A stretch of DNA of 64,000 nucleotides from Erigeron canadensis. Taxonomy: Eukaryota; Streptophyta; Magnoliopsida; Asterales; Asteraceae. The notes below the pieces were generated by a model. That model made no database searches. It was not told the DNA's origin and was given only the letters and a program-made list of their open reading frames with translations. A program made the position numbers and the translations under genes. The stretch's first letter is position 1, and every line of letters begins with the position of its first letter. Shown here one piece after another: positions 23,897 through 59,946 of the stretch. Location of the stretch: contig NC_057761.1 of the NCBI RefSeq assembly GCF_010389155.1, positions 59,394,587 to 59,458,586 on the forward strand. The letters run 5' to 3'.

Positions 23897-26800
23897 ATGG
23901 CAGAGGAGGTTGTCGCGGATAATACTGTCGAGCAGCAGATACTCTTTAGATTGGACGTGAAGAACATCACCCGGTGCAAGATCGTTTGTAAGTCATGGTA
24001 TTCTTTCATCTCCGATTCTCCTTTTGTCAACTCCCATCTCAAACATAACAATGATACCGCCGCTCGACGTACGAGGATCGTTATACAAGAAGACGAACAT
24101 CGGAACAATAATCTGGTTGGTTCTTCCAATGGCCTCGTATGCATATTTACATCCGACTACCCTAGAATTTGTGTACTCAATCCCTATACTAGAGAGATGG
24201 TGACCATGAGAAACCTCGACTTTCTTAATCCCAGTGCTTTCGTTCGAGCTATGAAACCATATCTTTATGGTTTTGGTTATGATTCGTCCTCGTATGATTA
24301 CAAGGTTATTGCAGGCGTATATAAAGAAAAGGAGAGTTTTACAAGCTTCCATTTGTCATCTTTGAAATCAGATAGTTGGAAACTTCACAAGGAAGTACAA
24401 TTGACATGTTTTCTTGCTGGTAGAGGCTCTGCCGGCATCTTATGCAATGGGGCACTTCACTGGCTTATGCGCGATCAAACTCACAAAACAGTCATACTTT
24501 CTTTTCATCTATCCAACGATGAATTTGAAGAAATTCCCACACCCGAACTTGACATATGTGAGTATGATCATAAACGTACCCGCCTCGGGATTTATAAAGA
24601 AGGTTTATGCATATTTGATGATAAAAACCGTGACCTTCCCATATGGGTAATGAAAAGCTACAAAGATATACAGTCTTGGGAGCCGTGTCTTCTCCAATGG
24701 GATAACGAAACAGCACATGACGTGGAACTGTTGAAGCTGAATTCTATTTACCGAGCCAAGGACTTTTTCAGTCATGATCTGTGTCGTTTGTCTGACATCC
24801 GAAAATATATTAGTGCCCCTGTATTTGTGCAGAGCCTTGTATCTCCCCACTTTTACAACGTCCGAAAGAGAAAGAAGGTGATCATACTAACGATGTTATT
24901 TTATCCTTTCTTTCTTTGATTATATCTTCCTATAGCTCGACAAGAACTTACTGCTACTTTCTTATTTGGTGTCAATATTTAAAATCTTAATTAGTGTGGT
25001 TTCACATATTTCCATTCTGCTAGCTGGAATTATCATAGTTTCATCTTCTGATGTTTAATTAGATGGACATCATATATATGCCTATTAATTAATTTTATGT
25101 TTGATTCAAATCCTTTTTGTTCTTAATTTCTTAAGTGTGTTAATTACCTATATATTTTTCTTGATAACAGCCATCTACTGGACCATCTCCAAAACCCGCC
25201 CGAAAAGATGTTAGACTTTCTTCCTGCAGTAAGCATTACACTTCAAAAAAACAAGCAAACAGGACTCGTGCTGATGCATTGGTAAATATAATACTTAATA
25301 CTATTATGCATGAAATTACATTGTGGTAATATATATAGGCTTTCGTAACTGATAATACTTGTTCACAGCCATCATATCATCCTCAAAAACACGAATTCGA
25401 CTACAGGACTTGTGGCGGTGATGCATTGGTAAGTATAAGAGCCTTATTCTTAATACTCTATATCATATCATGCAGGAAATATTTTGTGGTAATTAATATA
25501 GACTTTCGTAACTGACACTGTAATACTTGTTCACAGCCATGTTTTGGACGATGGCCGACATATCATCCTCAAAAACACGAACTCGAGTACATGACTGCTT
25601 GTGCTGATGCATTGGTAAGTATAAGAGCCTTATACTTAATATATTATGCATGAAAACATATTGTGGTAATATAGACTTCCGTAACTGATAATAGTTGTTC
25701 ACAGCCATCTTCTGGACGATGGCCGACATATCATCCTGAAAAATACGAATTCGAGTTGGACTATTACATTACAAGTAGGCCTATGTTTATTCAAGATTAC
25801 TATTTGAGGTGGATGAGCAGAAGTCATCCTGAAGTTGCGATGTCGCATGATAGTCGACCCGAGACTTTTTCATCACCCGTCCCTTTGTGTATAAATGTCA
25901 CTCCTATGGAGGTTATGGCTATGCTCACAAATCAGGAGCTTGAGATGACTATTTTAGCACTCTTTGTATCGTAAGTACCCTAATATGTCTTACCTTATTG
26001 TCTTACCTTATTTATATTCCCTAATAAAGTAAAAGCCCATTTTTATTTTAGGTAATTCTACCATTGAATTACCATAATTGCCCTTGACTTTTTATGTTTA
26101 GCCCTTAATGAATTAATTTACACTCTAAACCTCTATTTTAATAATTAACACTTTAAGTCCTTCTAAAAATTTCCACTATCACAATTACATCAACTTACAC
26201 TACTTGACACTGCCACCACCACCAATAGTACCATCACCGACACCACTAGACCTCCTTCATTGCGCAGGTACCATGCTCGTTATTATAATCGATATGACTC
26301 TTTAATTTTGTTGATATTAGTTTACACTATAATATATTGTTTTTTTTGTATCAGGGCTTTACATAACAACGTTGATGCAAACTTGAAGCCAAATAGATGT
26401 GCTTTTTTTAACCCGTTTGTGGTCAACGCTTTAATGTGTCAAAAGAATCCAATGGTGGTTGAAAATCATTTAAGAGAAGTGTTATCTCAACCTAACATAG
26501 ACAATTATTTGTTGCCATATCATCAAGGGTACGTATCATCATATTATGCTTATTTTTTCATGCTTGATGTTACATGTATGTATACTAACTAGTTTACGTA
26601 TTATTGCATTATTAGGAGGCATTGGTCGTTCTTTATATTGTGTCCCAATGAATTACTCGGGTTCATTTTAGATTCCTTTTCTAAGGGAAAGACCAAGGAT
26701 GACTATTCGTTACCAGACTTCATAGAAAAGTAAGAGTTTGTGTTATATCTATATATTTTATGATTGTTTCGTTTGTCAAAGTCTTAACACAACATTATCT

Positions 26801-27282
26801 TTAAATATTATTGTAGGATTATTCCCGGATTTTTTTGGTACTTGCCCAAGGTAAATTTTTATCTTTTATAATTATAATAGGTGTTGTTGGTGCATGTACA
26901 AATATATGTATGTTGGATGTTTATTGTATACTCCGTATATAATTGTTACGGAATTTTAGGTCCAACAACAAGAATCGAATTGGGAATGTGGTTACTACGT
27001 GATGCGTTGGATGTATAATTTTGTGAAATTTGAACAATATACTTTCCCGAAAATTGTAAGTAATTTCATATGTGTTGTATTATTTAATTTCCCACCCACT
27101 TACCTATTTTTTGTTTGTATTATTTAATTTGGTTCTTGCAATTAGTTTCCTTTTATTTATAAGTAGTAATTTTATTTTTGTGGGTGTAGATACCTTGGAA
27201 TGATACAAGACCTTATGAACAATGGGAATTAGATGAGATGGTTAAATTTTGGACAAATGCAATTTCGATTCCCGACGACTAA
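23897..27282 (+). CDS. F-box/FBA protein joined in frame to a Ulp1/C48 cysteine protease domain
   Basis: Model of ten exons: 23897-24877, 25171-25281, 25369-25428, 25537-25614, 25705-25970, 26355-26528, 26616-26729, 26817-26850, 26960-27055, 27190-27282. All nine introns are GT-AG, phases match at every junction, and the total is 2007 nt (668 codons plus stop). Residues about 9-45 are an F-box (VEQQILFRLDVKNITRCKIV), followed by an FBA region to about 310 and a basic VRKRKK. Residues 328-420 come from repeated small exons ending in DAL. The C-terminal half is a Ulp1-like peptidase with His559-Trp560, Asp576 (FILDSFS), Gln610 and Cys616 (NWECGYYVMRW). The F-box half would dock to SKP1 in an SCF ligase; the C48 half would cleave SUMO or another ubiquitin-like protein. 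If the first intron is not spliced, the F-box frame stops at 24917-24919 as a 340-residue protein and the Ulp1 exons belong to another gene or a transposon remnant. Transcript evidence would decide. Confidence 0.72.
25171..25760 (+). repeat. Tandemly duplicated exon-intron units inside the F-box-Ulp1 gene
   Basis: Exons 3, 4 and 5 start at 25369, 25537 and 25705, spaced exactly 168 bp. Exon 2 (25171) is a longer, diverged first unit. Exons 2-4 each end GATGCATTG then GTAA, and the following introns share TTTCGTAACTGA and TTGTTCACAG. The encoded phrase YHPQKHE / YHPEKYE recurs in exons 3-5, and GRWPTYHP in exons 4-5. Confidence 0.85.
26018..26279 (+). mobile_element. Helitron-like remnant in intron 5 of the F-box-Ulp1 gene
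   Basis: It resembles the 5178 Helitron in the opposite orientation: CCCTTAATGAATTAATTTACAC, then ACTTACACTACTTGACACTGCC, then CATTGCGCAGGTACCATGCT. The terminal CTAG is eroded to CTCG. It lies wholly inside the intron between the start of the protease region and its histidine exon. Confidence 0.55.
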
Positions 27283-27348
27283 AGTTTGAAGTATGTAATG
27301 AACTTTGACTTCATTATTAGGGATTTTATGAATTTGTAGCTAGGAACT

Positions 27349-27424
27349 TTAACTTTGTTTAGATTTTTAGGAGATGTTTAGTTCCCTTAACTTTGTTTAG
27401 ATTTTTAGGAGATGTTTAGTTCCC
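27349..27424. repeat. Two 38-bp tandem units 3' of the F-box-Ulp1 stop
   Basis: The unit TTAACTTTGTTTAGATTTTTAGGAGATG... occurs twice in direct succession (27349 and 27387). It probably lies in the 3' UTR. Confidence 0.85.
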
Positions 27425-28444
27425 TATATTCTATGTAATATTTTTATTGAGCATTAGCACTAGTGGTTTGAATTTGATTAAGTGGTTTGAATATGATTAT
27501 TGAGCAACAATTTTGGTTTTGGTATTTGGTTGTTGAGCTACAAGATTGGTTTTGGTATTTGGTTGTTGAGAAACAAGCTTAATGGAGCAACGGGTTTTTG
27601 GAAACACCTATTTTTATTTTGTTTTAAAAAATTGAATAGAGAAGTGTTATTTAAAAGGATTAGTACTTTAAAATGTAAACATCTTTACACGAATTGTCAT
27701 AGCGTGTATCGAACCTTAATCATGTGTGTTGTATGTAATGAACTTTTAAATCATGTGCGTTGCATGTATCCGACCAATAAAAAACTTACAAGTGACAGCT
27801 TATATGGTTGCCCCATATATACGGATACATATAATGCACTAGATTTGAAAGTTTATTACATACAATGCACATGAAAAAAGTTTGATACACCATATGACAA
27901 TTCATGTAAAGTTATTTACATTCTAAAATCCTAATCCCTATTTAAAATAAACAAGTTTGTAAAAAAAAAAGTTTGTAATAAAGCGATCTCTATGTGTTTG
28001 GCAGGAACATGTTATATAAAGACCTCAGTTGAATAAAAACCGGTTTCTTTGCTTAGAATAGTAGAGACCGGTCACAAAAATCCATTTGACCAGTATCTAT
28101 ACGATAAATTTGTACTAGTACAACTTTTTAATTCTCAGTGAATTCATGAAGATTTGAATAAGGCAAGTTTCATTAAAATGATTTTTCAAGGAATCATAAT
28201 GATAGCAAATTGTTTTATGTAAGACCTAGCCTTTTTTTTTTTTGTTAGACCTTGTTTAATTAGCAAATGCATATTCAGCCACCAAAGAATGGAATGTAAT
28301 ATGCAAAATACAAACCGTTACATACTTAAATGGGCTAAAACCCACCCCGGATACACAACCAATTAAACCACATAAGTTCAAAATTATTTAGAAAATAACA
28401 ACTTCATCATATTTTTCGATGCAAATTCTTTAATCAAACCTTTA
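27425..28444. other. Intergenic DNA, no gene supported
   Basis: A 124-codon open frame (27500-27874) is low in complexity, starts within a repeated TTTTGGTATTTGGTTGTTGAG phrase and matches no family I know. I do not call it a gene. Confidence 0.45.
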
Positions 28445-28579: not shown

Positions 28580-28866
28580 TTACCAAGGGATATCTCCATC
28601 GTAATCGGTTTTTGTCCAACACTCTAGAATAAGTTAGTGTCCCTGTATTCGTGTCGGACCTTGTACCTTCCTATCTTAAAAAAGAGACGAAAAAGAGAGG
28701 AATGGTACGGTTGGTTCTAATATATACTACTATATAGAAATTATAACACCCATGTTCAAAGTTAAGAAAAAATTGAACACGTGAATTGTTCAAACTATAC
28801 TTAATGAGTTAAATCACCACCAACACTTAGTATTAACTTACACCATTAGTCTATTATATTATAAAA

Positions 28867-32461: not shown

Positions 32462-32549
32462 ATGTTTCTGATATTTTGACGTTCTGCAGATTTTTCATCA
32501 GAGATATGTTTCTGATATTTTGACGTTCTGCAGATTTTTCATCAGAGAT
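32462..32549. repeat. Two perfect 44-bp tandem units
   Basis: ATGTTTCTGATATTTTGACG...CATCAGAGAT is repeated without change at 32462 and 32506. Confidence 0.9.
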
Positions 32550-32755
32550 CGTTTGCCTAATATTTTTCGTTTTGTTCAATCATGATAAATAAAAAGGGTA
32601 ATGGGATTCACTAACCTTAATTCCCATTCTGATTTTTTAGTAGATTAAGTTGATAACAGTTCTCTAAGTATATCATATATCTTAAATTTTTTTTTTTTAT
32701 AAAAACACTTCAAAACGTATCAGTAACAAGACACTTGTCACAGATGGGGTGCAGT

Positions 32756-34170: not shown

Positions 34171-34606
34171 ATAGCTAATTCAAACGGTGATAACAGTGCC
34201 TAGCTTGTAAGTTCTCATTATCTTCTTTGCGGTTAAGATATGGTATAACGGATTTTGTTTGTATTATTTTTGATGATCTGTAGATTACACAGTTAATTGC
34301 TAAGAAGTCACAATCTATATATGCTTATAAGCACACTCTTGGTAAGTATGTGATGTTCAACGAAACCAGTAAGCGTAGATAGTAAGTTTCTAAAAGCCAT
34401 CAATGTAATTAAAATTCGCCCATGCGGTATCGTGTCCGTAAAACTTTCGGAATCATGACGTGTCTATATCTGAGTGGCCAATGGCAATTACTATACTCCC
34501 TAAATAAATATATATTCAACAAAGATATCTCCATATATCACTGACCCCCACCCCCCAACCCTTTTTTTTTCCTTTTCCATACCCAATCACCGAAACTAGG
34601 GTTTCG

Positions 34607-35680
34607 ATGGATCATCTTTCTGAAATCCATGAGCAGATACTCATAAGATTGAGTGTGAGGGATCTGATCCGATGCAAGAGCGTGTGTAAGTCATGGCTAT
34701 CTTTGATCTCTAAACCTCAATTCATCAAAGCCCACCTTAACCAAAATGATCAAATTGATCGCAAGAATGACATAATTGGACATAGAAGAATTGTTATGTC
34801 TAAATTACCTTATAACTCTGATGGAGCTTTTGAATTTGACAACTACACATTTGACTTCTGTCGAAGTCATCTACTCGGTTCTGCTAATGGTCTGGTATGT
34901 GTCTCTCTTTCCCGTACTGAAATTGTAATAGTTAATCCTTCGACTAGAGAGGTAAACAAAATAACCAAACCGCAAATTCCAGCTGAAACTGGGCCCCTCT
35001 TTTGGGGCTTTGGTCATGATTCATATGTAGATGATTATAAAGCTGTTATAGGGTATTTAAAAGATGAGAATTGTACCTGTTTTCAAGTCTTCAGTTTAAA
35101 GGCTAATACTTGGAAGATGATTGAAGAGGTAAATCATGCCTTTTCAAGTAGGATAGGTGTCTTATGCAAGGGAGCTCTTCATTGGGTTGCATATGATAAC
35201 TCATCTAAAAAGAATATAGTTCTTTCCTTTAGTTTATTGGATGAAAAGTTTGTGGAAGTCCCTCAACCTGATGATGTGAGATACCAATATGATGTCGCTC
35301 AAGAGTTTTTAATGCGTTTGGGAACTATGAAAGACTGTTTATGTGTATTTCTGCACGAATCACTTCTTGATGAATTATGGGTAATGAAGGAGTATAATGT
35401 TAAAGAGTCCTGGGAAATCATTGGGCGTGAACCTGAGGTTAAGTATGACTTCCTGCACCGCATGAAACTATTGCAAAATTATGTTCCAAATAAAGGGACC
35501 TTGAGTCGTGATATAGGGCTGTCCGATGGGAGATTGTTCATGGGGTCTCCTTTATTTGTTGAAAGTCTGGTTTCTCCTCATTTCCACAAGAGACAGAAGA
35601 GAAAGAGGCGGCAAGTAAGTTCCATGAAGAGCTCTAAGTTGGGCCTATTTGTGGCATTTCATATTCATCCTGGTCATTAA
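34607..35680 (+). CDS. F-box/FBA (CPR1-like) protein
   Basis: Predicted SCF ubiquitin-ligase substrate adaptor. The ATG at 34607 is followed by the F-box (residues about 5-45, with IHEQILIRLSVRDLIRCKSV and VCKSWLSLIS). An F-box-associated domain runs to about residue 300, with landmarks LLGSANGLVCVS, WGFGHDSYVDDYKAVIGY and GVLCKGALHWVAYD. The tail SLVSPHFHKRQKRKRRQ is basic and could be a nuclear signal. The unspliced frame gives 357 residues (stop 35678-35680). A consensus donor CAA|GTAAGT at 35615 would instead end the first exon after residue 336, at the same place where the paralogue at 23897 is spliced. A short last exon near 36403 is possible but unproven. The target protein cannot be inferred. 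Confidence 0.88.
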   Translation: MDHLSEIHEQILIRLSVRDLIRCKSVCKSWLSLISKPQFIKAHLNQNDQIDRKNDIIGHRRIVMSKLPYNSDGAFEFDNYTFDFCRSHLLGSANGLVCVSLSRTEIVIVNPSTREVNKITKPQIPAETGPLFWGFGHDSYVDDYKAVIGYLKDENCTCFQVFSLKANTWKMIEEVNHAFSSRIGVLCKGALHWVAYDNSSKKNIVLSFSLLDEKFVEVPQPDDVRYQYDVAQEFLMRLGTMKDCLCVFLHESLLDELWVMKEYNVKESWEIIGREPEVKYDFLHRMKLLQNYVPNKGTLSRDIGLSDGRLFMGSPLFVESLVSPHFHKRQKRKRRQVSSMKSSKLGLFVAFHIHPGH

Positions 35681-53400: not shown

Positions 53401-54451
53401 ATTAAATAGGAATTACCTTTGCAGGGCACAAACTATTCCAACCAAAATGCTTCATTTATATACATAGGTTAGTAATCAACCCGACTCTTCAAGAATAAAT
53501 GGACTAAAACCGTTACAAAGAATCGAAGCAACAATGTCATTAATTGTTGGTTTTAAAAAGAAATTAATCAACCAATCATCCCTTCGTATGTATACCCCTA
53601 AGCTCATTAAATACAACACAAATACACTAACATTTATATACACACATTTCACAAAGGATTACCTTTCATCTGGGTCATCGATCGGACACCGATAAAAGAC
53701 AGAATGAAGTGGACATGAAAGGGTTTTTATCTTATTATTATTATTATCTCAATCGGGCTAAACAAAGAAAGAAGAAACAAAAAGGATTTGTATTTTTAAA
53801 ATACAAAAAAAAAAAACCCACCCTGGAGCAAGGTTAGAAAAAGAACAATATTGTTTGGGTTGGGCAAGGTTATCAAATGGATTAATGAACATATTATTTG
53901 GGCTAAACAATGGAACTATCAACTCAGCTTACATTCTTTTTCCTGAATTTCAATTAATTATATCTATAACTAATAATATATATAAAAATTTGTCACAACA
54001 ACACAATGTATATCTTTATGTCCACTTATGATAATTACATGCACATTAAGCTATAAAAGGCTTGCAATTGCCGATCCATCTAAGCAATATTTACTAACCA
54101 AGCAACAATTAATCACTCAAATATCTAAATGCAAAATGAATGCAAACTACATGATAAACGTCTAATAGAACCACAAACATACTACATCAAAATAATGAAC
54201 TCCATTAAGTATCCTAATTAAACCTCTTAAGTAGACATCGATAAAGCGTCAAGAATGCGCTAATTTTTTCATCACCATCATAAAACTTTTAGATATATAT
54301 AAATGAGGAAAAAAAATAAAAAAAAAAAGAAGAAACTTTATCCGCATAACCGCATAAATAAATCTATGTTTGGAAAATATTTCTTGTATCTCTTTAAATT
54401 AAACAAATAAAATATTTATTATTCTGTTAATCGTAGGCGATTAGGGTTTGG
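53401..54451. other. AT-rich DNA between the B3 remnant and the F-box gene
   Basis: A possible first exon of the minus-strand B3-like gene lies near 53670-53690 (ATGACCCAGATGAAAG then GTAATC). The remainder should hold the promoter of the F-box gene at 54452. No other gene is supported. Confidence 0.4.
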
Positions 54452-55645
54452 ATGTCGTCGGAGAAGGTGGGTGTGGTCGTCCTGGGCGATATACTTGAGC
54501 AAATACTGGTTAGATTGGATTTGAAGGATCTCATCCAATGCAAAAGAGTCTGTACGTCATGGCATTCTTTAGTCTCCTCTTCTCGTTTTGCTATTTCCGT
54601 TTTTATTAGTAATAAACAGAATACTAGTAATAATAAGAGGCAGAGGATCTGTATCAATGAGGATCGTTTGAGAAAGAATCTTGTTGGTTCTTCCAATGGC
54701 CTTGTATGCATCTTTACCCGCAATGCTGAAATTGTAGTAGCTAATCCCTTAACGGGAGAGTTGAAAAAACTCAAAAATCCGGAGTTGAAAAAACTCGAAA
54801 ACCCTCGTCATGGAGTACGATCTCTTTGTAACAACCTATGGTTCCTCGGTGGTTTTGGTTACGATTCATGGTCAGATGACTACAAGGTCATTTTAGGGAC
54901 ACGGCAATACGATGCGGATTTTATGCGATTCCATGTGCTTTCTTTGAAATCAAATGTTTGGAAAATTGCTGGAGAGGCAAAATGTAGTTTCATTTGTATA
55001 TCCCGGTACCCCTACTCTTATAACAAAAAAGATACTTGTGGTATCTTATGCAATGGGGCAATCCACTGGTTTGTGTTAGATCAACATAAGAATCCAATGA
55101 TTCTTTCTTTTGATTTATCCACAGAGGAATTTAAAGAAATCCCCCAACCTGATGATCCGAGTTATAAGTATACTGCTCATACTAATTACCGTCTGGGGAT
55201 GGTTGAAGAAAGTTTGTGCATATATAACGATCACCTTCCCAATTGTGCAAAATTAGTCAAAACGCGTTCTTGTCCCAAATGGGTAATGAAAAAGTACAAT
55301 GGTAAACAGGGCTGGGAACTGCTTCCACATCATGCTCAGTGGGATAATGATGTCGCACTTCGATTAAAATTGGGGATCTTTTTCAATAGTGTCAAGAAAT
55401 CCTTCTTTCATGAACGTAAGCAATGTGTACACAAGACTTCGGAATATATTAGTGCCCCTATGTATGTACAGAGCCTTGTATCTCCTCAAGTTAATGAAAG
55501 ACCAAAGAGTCCTGTATCTCCAGGGGGAGCAAAAAGTCTTCTATATCATCATGTTAGCGAGAGATCTATGAGTAATGTATCTGGACATGTTATTGGGGGG
55601 CTTAAAAGAAAGAGGCATACACAGAATGGATATCAAGAGCGGTAA
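54452..55645 (+). CDS. F-box/FBA (CPR1-like) protein, tandem copy A
   Basis: Predicted SCF substrate adaptor of 397 residues. The F-box spans residues about 10-48 (LGDILEQILVRLDLKDLIQC, VCTSWHSLVSSSRF). The FBA region follows, with LVGSSNGLVCIF, GGFGYDSWSDDYKVILGT, GILCNGAIHWFV and ILSFDLSTEEFKEIPQPDD. The C-terminus SLVSPQVNERPKSPVS is followed by an extra serine-rich insert absent from copy B, and then GGLKRKRH. The gene is unspliced. It is the closest paralogue of the gene at 58897, with long stretches of near identity such as HKNPMILSFDLSTEEFKE. Its stop overlaps a consensus donor (GAGCG|GTAAGA), so a longer spliced form is conceivable. Confidence 0.9.
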   Translation: MSSEKVGVVVLGDILEQILVRLDLKDLIQCKRVCTSWHSLVSSSRFAISVFISNKQNTSNNKRQRICINEDRLRKNLVGSSNGLVCIFTRNAEIVVANPLTGELKKLKNPELKKLENPRHGVRSLCNNLWFLGGFGYDSWSDDYKVILGTRQYDADFMRFHVLSLKSNVWKIAGEAKCSFICISRYPYSYNKKDTCGILCNGAIHWFVLDQHKNPMILSFDLSTEEFKEIPQPDDPSYKYTAHTNYRLGMVEESLCIYNDHLPNCAKLVKTRSCPKWVMKKYNGKQGWELLPHHAQWDNDVALRLKLGIFFNSVKKSFFHERKQCVHKTSEYISAPMYVQSLVSPQVNERPKSPVSPGGAKSLLYHHVSERSMSNVSGHVIGGLKRKRHTQNGYQER

Positions 55646-58637: not shown

Positions 58638-58896
58638 AAATGAAAATGTTATGTGTAAACAATTAATTGCCAAAATAAAAGTAGTTATTTAATTACGTGG
58701 CTTGTAGTCAGTTGTAGACCACTCAGTAGTCATAATAAGTAAACAGGCCTAGCTAGCTTGGAATGTGGGCTACTAGTATTGGATCAGCCCTTTGTTTTCG
58801 AATATAACCCAAAATATTTATTTTCGTTCCGCCAATCTAATTAATTTTTGTAATCTTTTGATTAACCAAATATATTTATACGGCGTTTAGGGTTTA
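58638..58896. other. Junction region and upstream flank of F-box copy B
   Basis: A/T-rich, no gene. It lies between the end of tandem unit A and the ATG of copy B, so the promoter of copy B should lie here. TATATTTATA at 58869-58878 is only about 20 bp from the ATG, too close for a confident core promoter. Confidence 0.4.
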
Positions 58897-59946
58897 ATGT
58901 CGGAGATGGTGGTCCCTGATGATATAGTTGAGCAAATACTAGTTAGATTGGATTGGAAGTATCTCATCCACTGCATGAGAGTTTGTAAGTCATGGCATTC
59001 TTTGGTCTCAGGTTTTCGTTTCGCTGTATCCCGTTTTACTTACAGGAACAGGAGAAGGCAGAGGATCTGTATCATTGAGGATCATCCGCGAGAGCATCTT
59101 GTTGGCTCTTCCAATGGCCTTGTATGCATCTTTACTCGCTATCTTGACTATATAGTGGTTAATCCCTTAACTAGAGAGTTGAAGAAACTCGAAAACCACC
59201 CTGATAATAAGGTTATCCGTCCATCCCTTGTTGGTTTTGGTTACGATTCATCCTCAGATGATTACAAGGTCATTTCAGGGAGACAAGATTATGTTAACAA
59301 GGATATGCAATTTCATATGTTTTCTGTGAAATCAAATGTTTGGAAATTTGTTGGAGAAATAGAATGTAGCTCCATTCGCATGGTCAGTTTTAATCATGAA
59401 AATAATACTTGTGGTATCTTATGCAATGGGGCACTCCACTGGTTTGTGTTAGATCAACACAAGAACCCGGTGATTCTTTCTTTTGATTTATCCACAGAGG
59501 AATTCAAAGAACTCCCCCAACCTGATGACGCCAATTATAAGAAGCCAATTGCTTTTACTTATTACCGCTTGGGGATGGTTGAAGAAAGTTTATGCATATT
59601 TCACGATCACCATCCCCGTTGTGCAAGTATAGGCCAACCGCGTGCTAGTCCCAAATGGGTAATGAAAAACTACGATAGTAGGTGGTGGGAACTGCTTTCG
59701 CATCAAGATCAGTGGGATAATGACTTCACACTCCGGTTAAAAAATCTGATATATTACAATAGAGTCAAGAAATCCTTCTTTCATGAAGGTAAACAATGTA
59801 TTCTCAATACTTTGGATTATATTAGTGCCCCTATATACGTAGAGAGCCTTGTATCTCCTCAAGTTAATGAAAGACCAAAGAATCCTGTATCTCGGCATGT
59901 TAGTGGGGGACGGAAAAGAAAGAGGAATACAAAGATTGGATTTTAG
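58897..59946 (+). CDS. F-box/FBA (CPR1-like) protein, tandem copy B
   Basis: Predicted SCF substrate adaptor of 349 residues. F-box at residues about 6-44 (VPDDIVEQILVRLDWKYLIH, VCKSWHSLVSGFRF). FBA region with LVGSSNGLVCIFTRYLDY, VGFGYDSSSDDYKVISG, GILCNGALHWFVLDQHKNPV and LGMVEESLCIFHDHHP. The tail SLVSPQVNERPKNPVSRHV ends in basic GGRKRKRNTK. No intron is needed. Its 3' end is 340 bp from the stop of the convergent proton-channel gene, so the 3' UTRs may touch. It appears to be the less rearranged of the two tandem copies. Confidence 0.92.
   Translation: MSEMVVPDDIVEQILVRLDWKYLIHCMRVCKSWHSLVSGFRFAVSRFTYRNRRRQRICIIEDHPREHLVGSSNGLVCIFTRYLDYIVVNPLTRELKKLENHPDNKVIRPSLVGFGYDSSSDDYKVISGRQDYVNKDMQFHMFSVKSNVWKFVGEIECSSIRMVSFNHENNTCGILCNGALHWFVLDQHKNPVILSFDLSTEEFKELPQPDDANYKKPIAFTYYRLGMVEESLCIFHDHHPRCASIGQPRASPKWVMKNYDSRWWELLSHQDQWDNDFTLRLKNLIYYNRVKKSFFHEGKQCILNTLDYISAPIYVESLVSPQVNERPKNPVSRHVSGGRKRKRNTKIGF

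Follow-up and report, generated by a model that had tools for sequence, protein, structure and literature searches.

A candidate young chimera of an F-box gene and captured CACTA transposon exons in Erigeron canadensis

The gene model and its predicted product

The window analyzed here is a stretch of 64,000 nucleotides from Erigeron canadensis (horseweed) contig NC_057761.1 (positions 59,394,587 to 59,458,586, forward strand), and coordinates are counted from its first letter. A gene model rebuilt from the window sequence has 10 exons at 23897-27282 on the plus strand (Table 1), which would join into 2007 nt encoding 668 residues with no internal stops, and has GT-AG borders at all nine introns. 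The first-pass annotation had followed an F-box/F-box-associated (FBA) frame with matching phase into a Ulp1-like domain, and the rebuilt model bears this out, including the presence of H559, D576, Q610 and C616 at the positions given there; we take these four residues to be the His-Asp-Gln-Cys catalytic set of the Ulp1/SENP peptidases. T content is mostly higher in the introns (34-53%; 47% in intron 1) than in the exons (23-41%; 30% in exon 1). If exon 1 were read on unspliced, it would reach a stop at 24919.

Table 1. Features of the F-box/C48 locus, in window coordinates
Feature	Position	Strand	Basis
Exon 1: F-box and FBA (F-box-associated) module, 327 codons	23897..24877	+	Pfam; paralogues in window and on C4
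Intron 1: putative fusion intron	24878..25170	+	Splice-site scores; paralogue and element comparison
Exon 2: linker, homologue of the linker exon of the CACTA family (P0002 residues 142-177)	25171..25281	+	Alignment versus shuffles
Exon 3: tandem duplicate of linker exon+intron unit	25369..25428	+	Absent from family copies read
Exon 4: tandem duplicate of linker exon+intron unit	25537..25614	+	Absent from family copies read
Exon 5: transposon exon, start of C48 region (Pfam match from residue 488)	25705..25970	+	Pfam; family alignment
Exon 6: C48 domain	26355..26528	+	Family alignment
Exon 7: C48 domain, with H559 and D576	26616..26729	+	Model; family alignment
Exon 8: C48 domain	26817..26850	+	Family alignment
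Exon 9: C48 domain, with Q610 and C616	26960..27055	+	Model; family alignment
Exon 10: end of C48 domain and stop codon	27190..27282	+	Model; family alignment
3′ untranslated and subterminal DNA of truncated CACTA copy	27283..28120	+	Family similarity, motif, end

Two features are absent from the first-pass annotation, namely the tandem duplication of one exon-plus-intron linker unit that gives exons 3 and 4, and the continuation of the transposon copy past the gene to about 28120.

Pfam matches to the fusion protein comprise F-box PF00646 (24 bits, cut-off 20.5; residues 14-43, the match beginning at profile position 11 of 43), FBA_3 PF08268 (23.4 bits, cut-off 20.7), the PF24750 propeller (25 bits, cut-off 25) and Peptidase_C48 PF02902 (27 bits, cut-off 20.7; residues 488-622, profile positions 2-177 of 217); F-box-like PF12937, at 23 bits, lies below its cut-off of 24.3. 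Compared with solved structures, the whole fusion retrieved just two F-box chains (E 0.52 and 0.53).

No protein with both an F-box and a C48 domain was listed among 47 matches with candidate lengths of 367-1169 aa, a range outside which an F-box-only product of fewer than 367 aa would fall; the collection includes P0005, which reads the same as the F-box protein encoded at 54 kb in the window. Three matches of 188-597 aa included no C48 protein from this locus, a best-relative search with the C48 half gave no F-box-C48 protein, and none was found among the matches listed in the literature, where most subscription papers lay outside the scope of the search. The first-pass annotation likewise knew of no described protein joining an F-box/FBA module to C48. 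Other F-box chimeras do occur among the protein matches (P0021, P0032 and P0044); in our judgement these look like annotation merges, and in-phase neighbours can therefore mislead.

The CACTA family behind exons 2-10

Exons 2-10 originate from a transposon; by homology they correspond to the 3′ portion, comprising linker and C48, of a CACTA family present in many copies. The C48 half has at least 82 exon-level matches in the genome, eight of these being the window's own, and 17 regions carrying relatives were fetched (including L029-L045, with C-terminal pieces only in L040-L045). One group of elements starts with CACTACTACAAA and ends with TGTAGTAGTG, and CACTA...TAGTG ends with 3-bp target duplications are present in all six copies viewed at both ends (L030-L034 and L037). 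L032, the one copy scanned, has an open frame with tnp2 (293 bits) and Transpos_assoc, and within the family the tnp2 and C48 exons may be spliced into one protein.

The E. canadensis protein P0002 (LOC122610198), which aligns with 77% of the C48 half plus linker at 58% identity, is encoded in L034, a copy shorter than L032, with exact 10-mers covering 425 of its 425 residues. It has Transpos_assoc and C48 domains and, per its source's list, PF26133 (presumably DUF8039). The alignment of exon 2 with P0002 scores 66 against 28.1 ± 4.9 for shuffles, none of 2000 reaching it, and exon 5 begins at P0002 residue 178; exon 1 has no similarity to P0002 (score 31, matched by 428 of 500 shuffles). Matches to the end of P0002 that carries Transpos_assoc occur in 10 of the 17 fetched regions (L029-L034 and L036-L039). 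An AlphaFold model of P0002, made with three sequences, was discarded at a mean pLDDT of 32.8.

The borders of exons 5-10 are common to the window and 10 aligned transposon copies, an alignment from which L032 (start motif not found) and L040-L045 were left out, with the exceptions that the exon-5 acceptor of L030 is TG, that the exon-7 acceptor of L035 does not align as AG and that L037 is without exon 5. The 10 copies also share the four C48 residues, and the position of the linker exon behind a phase-0 intron and acceptor is likewise a family feature. The borders that exons 5-10 share with transposon copies show that the C48 exon model did not arise by chance, and a mis-drawn C48 exon model was ruled out by the same alignment.

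The similarity of the window to the family starts at 25158, 13 nt 5′ of exon 2 (by eye, the last ~20 nt of the intron are alike), continues to 27586 and reappears intermittently at 27611-27642 and 27970-28020; a single subterminal motif, GAGACCGGT, follows at 28064 and a degenerate 3′ element end, TTTGTACTAGTA, at 28109-28120. Further upstream than its last nucleotides, intron 1 has no convincing similarity to family introns in nine comparisons, the scores being matched by 40 to 360 of 500 shuffles. Neither the 5′ end nor the 5′ half of the element was found in the window, the exact 5′ end being known for group A only of the two groups (the 5′ ends of L029, L035, L036, L038 and L039 were not recovered). 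The window copy does not have the two ends of a CACTA element and has probably lost mobility. These comparisons place its left breakpoint with an uncertainty of some tens of nucleotides.

Of the possibilities raised in the first-pass annotation, the uptake of a transposon exon set by a host F-box gene is supported, in that the C48 half corresponds to the 3′ portion of a CACTA element with many copies in this genome and the F-box exon has no match in any of the 17 fetched C48-relative regions (six of which, L040-L045, hold C-terminal pieces only). Among the matches listed, read by eye, F-box and C48 matches adjoin in the window only, the next pair being ~37 kb apart on C7. A Pack-CACTA history, with the element capturing the F-box gene and the F-box travelling inside the transposon, finds some encouragement in the capture of coding DNA by non-autonomous transposons, described as common in plants in the accessible text of PMC8903248, and in L046 on C3, a near-copy of the middle part of the window F-box exon. 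We nevertheless regard it as very unlikely, given the absence of an element 5′ end or half from the window (subject to the exact 5′ end being known for one of two groups), the clustering of the F-box exon with three paralogues in the window (at 34508, 54437 and 58891), the lack of an F-box match in the fetched regions and the lack of a C48 match in L046. Hardly any weight is given to an assembly error joining unrelated stretches: a single assembly was examined, but the left breakpoint is intronic and phase matched, the sequence has diverged from every fetched copy, and the linker duplicates occur in none of the copies read.

The fusion intron and constraint on the frame

Among the matches listed, the nearest full relatives of the F-box exon are L047 and L048 on C4 (59% and 57%). 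Both carry a donor in the C-terminal tail, in phase 0 in L047 as read by eye, and intron-like tails were also read by eye in P0011, P0019, P0022 and P0025 among 19 relatives; an acceptor-like site and the sequence following it, common to L047 and L048, were read as a small terminal exon. Pieces of window intron 1 match the DNA 3′ of the two tail donors (24952-24984, 91%; 24980-25021, 82%; 25026-25075, 84%), which puts the left breakpoint inside a probable tail intron of the F-box gene, as these two paralogues suggest.

On scores built from unfitted splice-site frequencies, the donor at 24877 (AAG/GTGATC; 2.78) is the sole donor above 0 in 24700-25170, and the acceptor at 25171 is the best in intron 1 (4.36, the runner-up being 24936 at 1.90). 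The tail donors of L047 and L048 score 4.50 and 2.76 on the same scale. Donor 24877 is not certainly native, as the alignment also permits loss of the native donor, and the 24877/25171 junction remains a model. Use of the acceptor at 24936, which would leave a 58-nt intron, was rejected on its lower score and a hydrophobic read-on. Also rejected was an independent C48 gene whose first exon would lie in intron 1, there being no donor above 0 there except 24877; a start of such a gene further downstream, in exon 4 or 5, is possible.

The strongest alternative to a chimeric gene, which we consider tentative and somewhat improbable, is that two units merely lie side by side, an ordinary F-box gene that terminates either at the 24919 stop or in some other terminal exon, next to a 5′-truncated, dying CACTA copy, with no fused mRNA and with the open phase due to luck plus recent truncation. 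The observations on transposon origin fit this arrangement equally, donor 24877 is non-consensus, and the phase match of 24877 with 25171 has a chance expectation of about 1 in 3. At 32487-32649 the window also has a stretch resembling the native end of an F-box terminal intron (score 86; 60 shuffles, 37.8 ± 5.2, maximum 54), which may be the true splicing partner of the tail donor, and neither a fused nor a C48 protein of the locus is among the matches listed. The side-by-side arrangement is harder to reconcile with 24877 and 25171 being the highest-scoring donor and acceptor in this stretch, with the apparent tail introns of the F-box relatives and with the absence of a start codon from exon 2.

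The state of the C48 frame bears on the same question. Exons 5-10 of the window have no stops and no frameshifts, whereas among 10 family copies these exons are broken in five, open in four and without exon 5 in one; L029, open over exons 5-10, has a stop in the linker exon. When the window's 62 own substitutions were placed at random, no stop arose in 4.6% of 2000 runs, or in 20.2% over half the branch. Exons 5-10 have one window-specific indel, of 9 bp and in frame, and introns 6-9 have several of other lengths; long insertions distort the counts in introns 8 and 9, which are of qualitative use only. Survival of the frame through these changes speaks against two units lying side by side; the weak constraint on the window branch speaks for it.

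That constraint was gauged by dN/dS over the C48 half, as proposed in the first-pass annotation. Pairwise values, from which exons 2-4 (because linker exon 2 misaligned), L032 and L040-L045 were left out, are below 1, at 0.42 and 0.48; on the window branch, descriptive counts of 16 nonsynonymous and 8 synonymous substitutions (a per-site ratio of 0.575, with ~3.5 to 1 expected from sites alone) are not clearly below neutral. Two other branches have counts of 26.5 to 25.5 and 25.5 to 12.5. The three codon positions carry almost even numbers of window-specific changes (22, 17 and 23 of 254, 257 and 257 sites), and the introns have 45 of 447. The duplicated linker exons, with identities of 0.83 and 0.87 against 0.88-0.92 for the introns and with 15 nonsynonymous and 2 synonymous changes, appear unconstrained, changing at intron speed or faster. 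Constraint before and after the fusion is inseparable, because the frame also served the element during its mobile phase. The F-box cluster is itself fast-evolving (dN/dS of the window exon 0.66 versus L047 and 0.84 versus L048); in a relative-rate comparison over 24170-24690 the window has 5 changes and L046 11 in 448 sites (p = 0.21).

The other possibility in the first-pass annotation was a ligase adaptor that would also edit a ubiquitin-like tag. We weigh cautiously its fullest form, the proposal of a single selected F-box-FBA-C48 protein, arisen by deletion-mediated capture of CACTA exons, that would act as an SCF ligase adaptor with its own tag peptidase and strip SUMO-like or ubiquitin-like tags from the same substrates. 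Both modules exceed their Pfam cut-offs, the four C48 residues are kept, the frame is intact and the pairwise dN/dS values are below 1. Set against these are the window-branch counts, the unconstrained linker, the fast evolution of the F-box cluster, a frame that could date from the mobile phase of the element, and occurrence at one locus in one species, and we judge the proposal improbable. As a general observation, weak constraint on the C48 branch, fast linker exons, a non-consensus first donor and the lack of any such protein among those listed all count against function.

Interpretation and comparison with known systems

The best explanation, at a probability of roughly 55%, is a young host-transposon chimeric gene, in which the tail donor of an F-box gene faces captured CACTA linker and C48 exons and is spliced to them. 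By paralogue comparison, the starting point would have been an F-box/FBA gene in a tandem cluster with an intron in its C-terminal tail, downstream of which a CACTA element with Ulp1-type exons sat. A deletion from the F-box tail intron to the element intron 5′ of the linker exon would have taken the native terminal exon together with the 5′ end and upstream exons of the element. Donor 24877 would then have come to face the element acceptor at 25171 in the same phase, so that splicing would give a 668-residue F-box-FBA-linker-C48 protein. A deletion joining the two introns is the simplest explanation, and we infer the order of events, as well as the transcript, the protein and any activity.

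If the product is translated, its F-box half would dock on SKP1 and bring in substrates, and its C48 half would contribute a cysteine peptidase domain of the Ulp1 type that retains its four residues. We expect a chimeric mRNA at some level, with the C48 half a passenger or new accessory rather than a proven enzyme. In Arabidopsis, the available text of PMC10241880 describes chimeric gene-transposon transcripts at thousands of loci and an enrichment of several superfamilies, including CACTA, in splicing events, which makes a chimeric RNA plausible here; a working fusion protein is a much larger claim. The locus is of interest as an early-stage capture in which the donor, the breakpoint and the parent element family are all visible, and it suggests that transposon exons can plug into the tail introns of fast-evolving F-box clusters. 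Translation of the fused frame would unite a ligase adaptor with a tag peptidase in one polypeptide and, were a selected fusion true, one protein could direct both the tagging and the untagging of a substrate.

The C48 half with its linker is shared with P0002, which is the transposon's own gene (in L034) and has Transpos_assoc and PF26133 in place of the F-box. As far as the consulted portion of PMC2528002 goes, the grapevine Cactavine CACTA-ULP elements have a Ulp1 region and rice has proteins with both tnp2 and Ulp1; the horseweed family similarly has CACTA ends, tnp2 (in L032) and C48 exons, but, unlike Cactavine, the window copy is without its 5′ end and upstream exons and lies behind a host F-box exon. 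The VANC/Kaonashi (KIU) genes of non-TIR MULEs likewise have a conserved Ulp1/C48 domain in a transposon gene, although in the material seen of PMC13317346 these belong to another superfamily and the partner of the domain is a transposon protein, not a host adaptor. C48 domains are also found on host genes, on multicopy plant genes in the case of NLR-C48 (PMC4759884, in part) and as jacalin-C48 in a lectin survey (PMC5485960, in part), in both cases with a partner other than an F-box.

The closest parallels in kind are the Caenorhabditis F-box A2 (with a Mariner HTH) and zebrafish F-box-KDZ CxC7 genes, F-box genes with captured transposon domains, which are reported in the accessible part of PMC12062965 together with 820 F-box proteins with potential TE or viral domain fusions; the words C48 and Ulp1 are absent from its main text. 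Like these, the horseweed locus combines a multicopy F-box gene with a DNA-transposon domain; unlike them, it is in a plant, concerns the C-terminal C48 end of a CACTA gene, and is a single fusion known from sequence alone. Capture of transposon domains by F-box genes is thus already known in worms and fish and, relative to the portions of these reports that we could consult, the C48 peptidase end of a CACTA gene appears to be a new partner, here in a plant.

Further F-box sequences in and beyond the cluster

Donor-like sites are present in the tails of the first two of three further F-box/FBA genes in the window, and the middle of the F-box exon of the predicted F-box/FBA-C48 gene (24166-24700) has a 535-bp near-copy at 86.5% identity on a different chromosome (L046), which has an internal deletion of approximately 50 nt and lacks the exon ends. 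The remnant at 28595-28702 matches L047, one of the two nearest full paralogues, at 69.6% over 115 columns, and the window's own F-box exon at 73.8% over 61 bp.

The stretch at 32487-32649 resembles the end of the last intron together with the terminal exon in paralogues L047 and L048; it is perhaps a displaced terminal exon, either of the F-box gene in the fusion model or of the 28.6 kb remnant.

Features in the window and in related regions of the same genome
Feature	Position	Strand	Remarks
F-box/FBA gene	34508-35680	plus	same cluster as window F-box exon; donor-like site in tail
F-box/FBA gene	54437-55645	plus	same cluster; donor-like site in tail
F-box/FBA gene	58891-59946	plus	same cluster
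Remnant, tail of another F-box exon	28595-28702		beyond 3' end of transposon copy; similar to L047 and window exon
L046	C3:18884000-18887400	minus	near-copy of middle of window F-box exon
L034	C8:7580600-7590500		CACTA element whose gene is LOC122610198

The transposon copy and a related element

Linker exons 2-5 (25171-25704) form a tandem array of exon-plus-intron units, in which the exons have changed at a rate at least equal to that of the introns, with 15 nonsynonymous and 2 synonymous changes. Towards its 3' end, within the part downstream of the coding exons, the copy contains a MITE-like palindrome (27657-27937) in the truncated transposon, with arms of 116 nt that are 82% complementary. 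LOC122610198, a relative of the C48 half labeled "uncharacterized protein" in the database, is the gene of CACTA element L034, which has both element ends and a target duplication.
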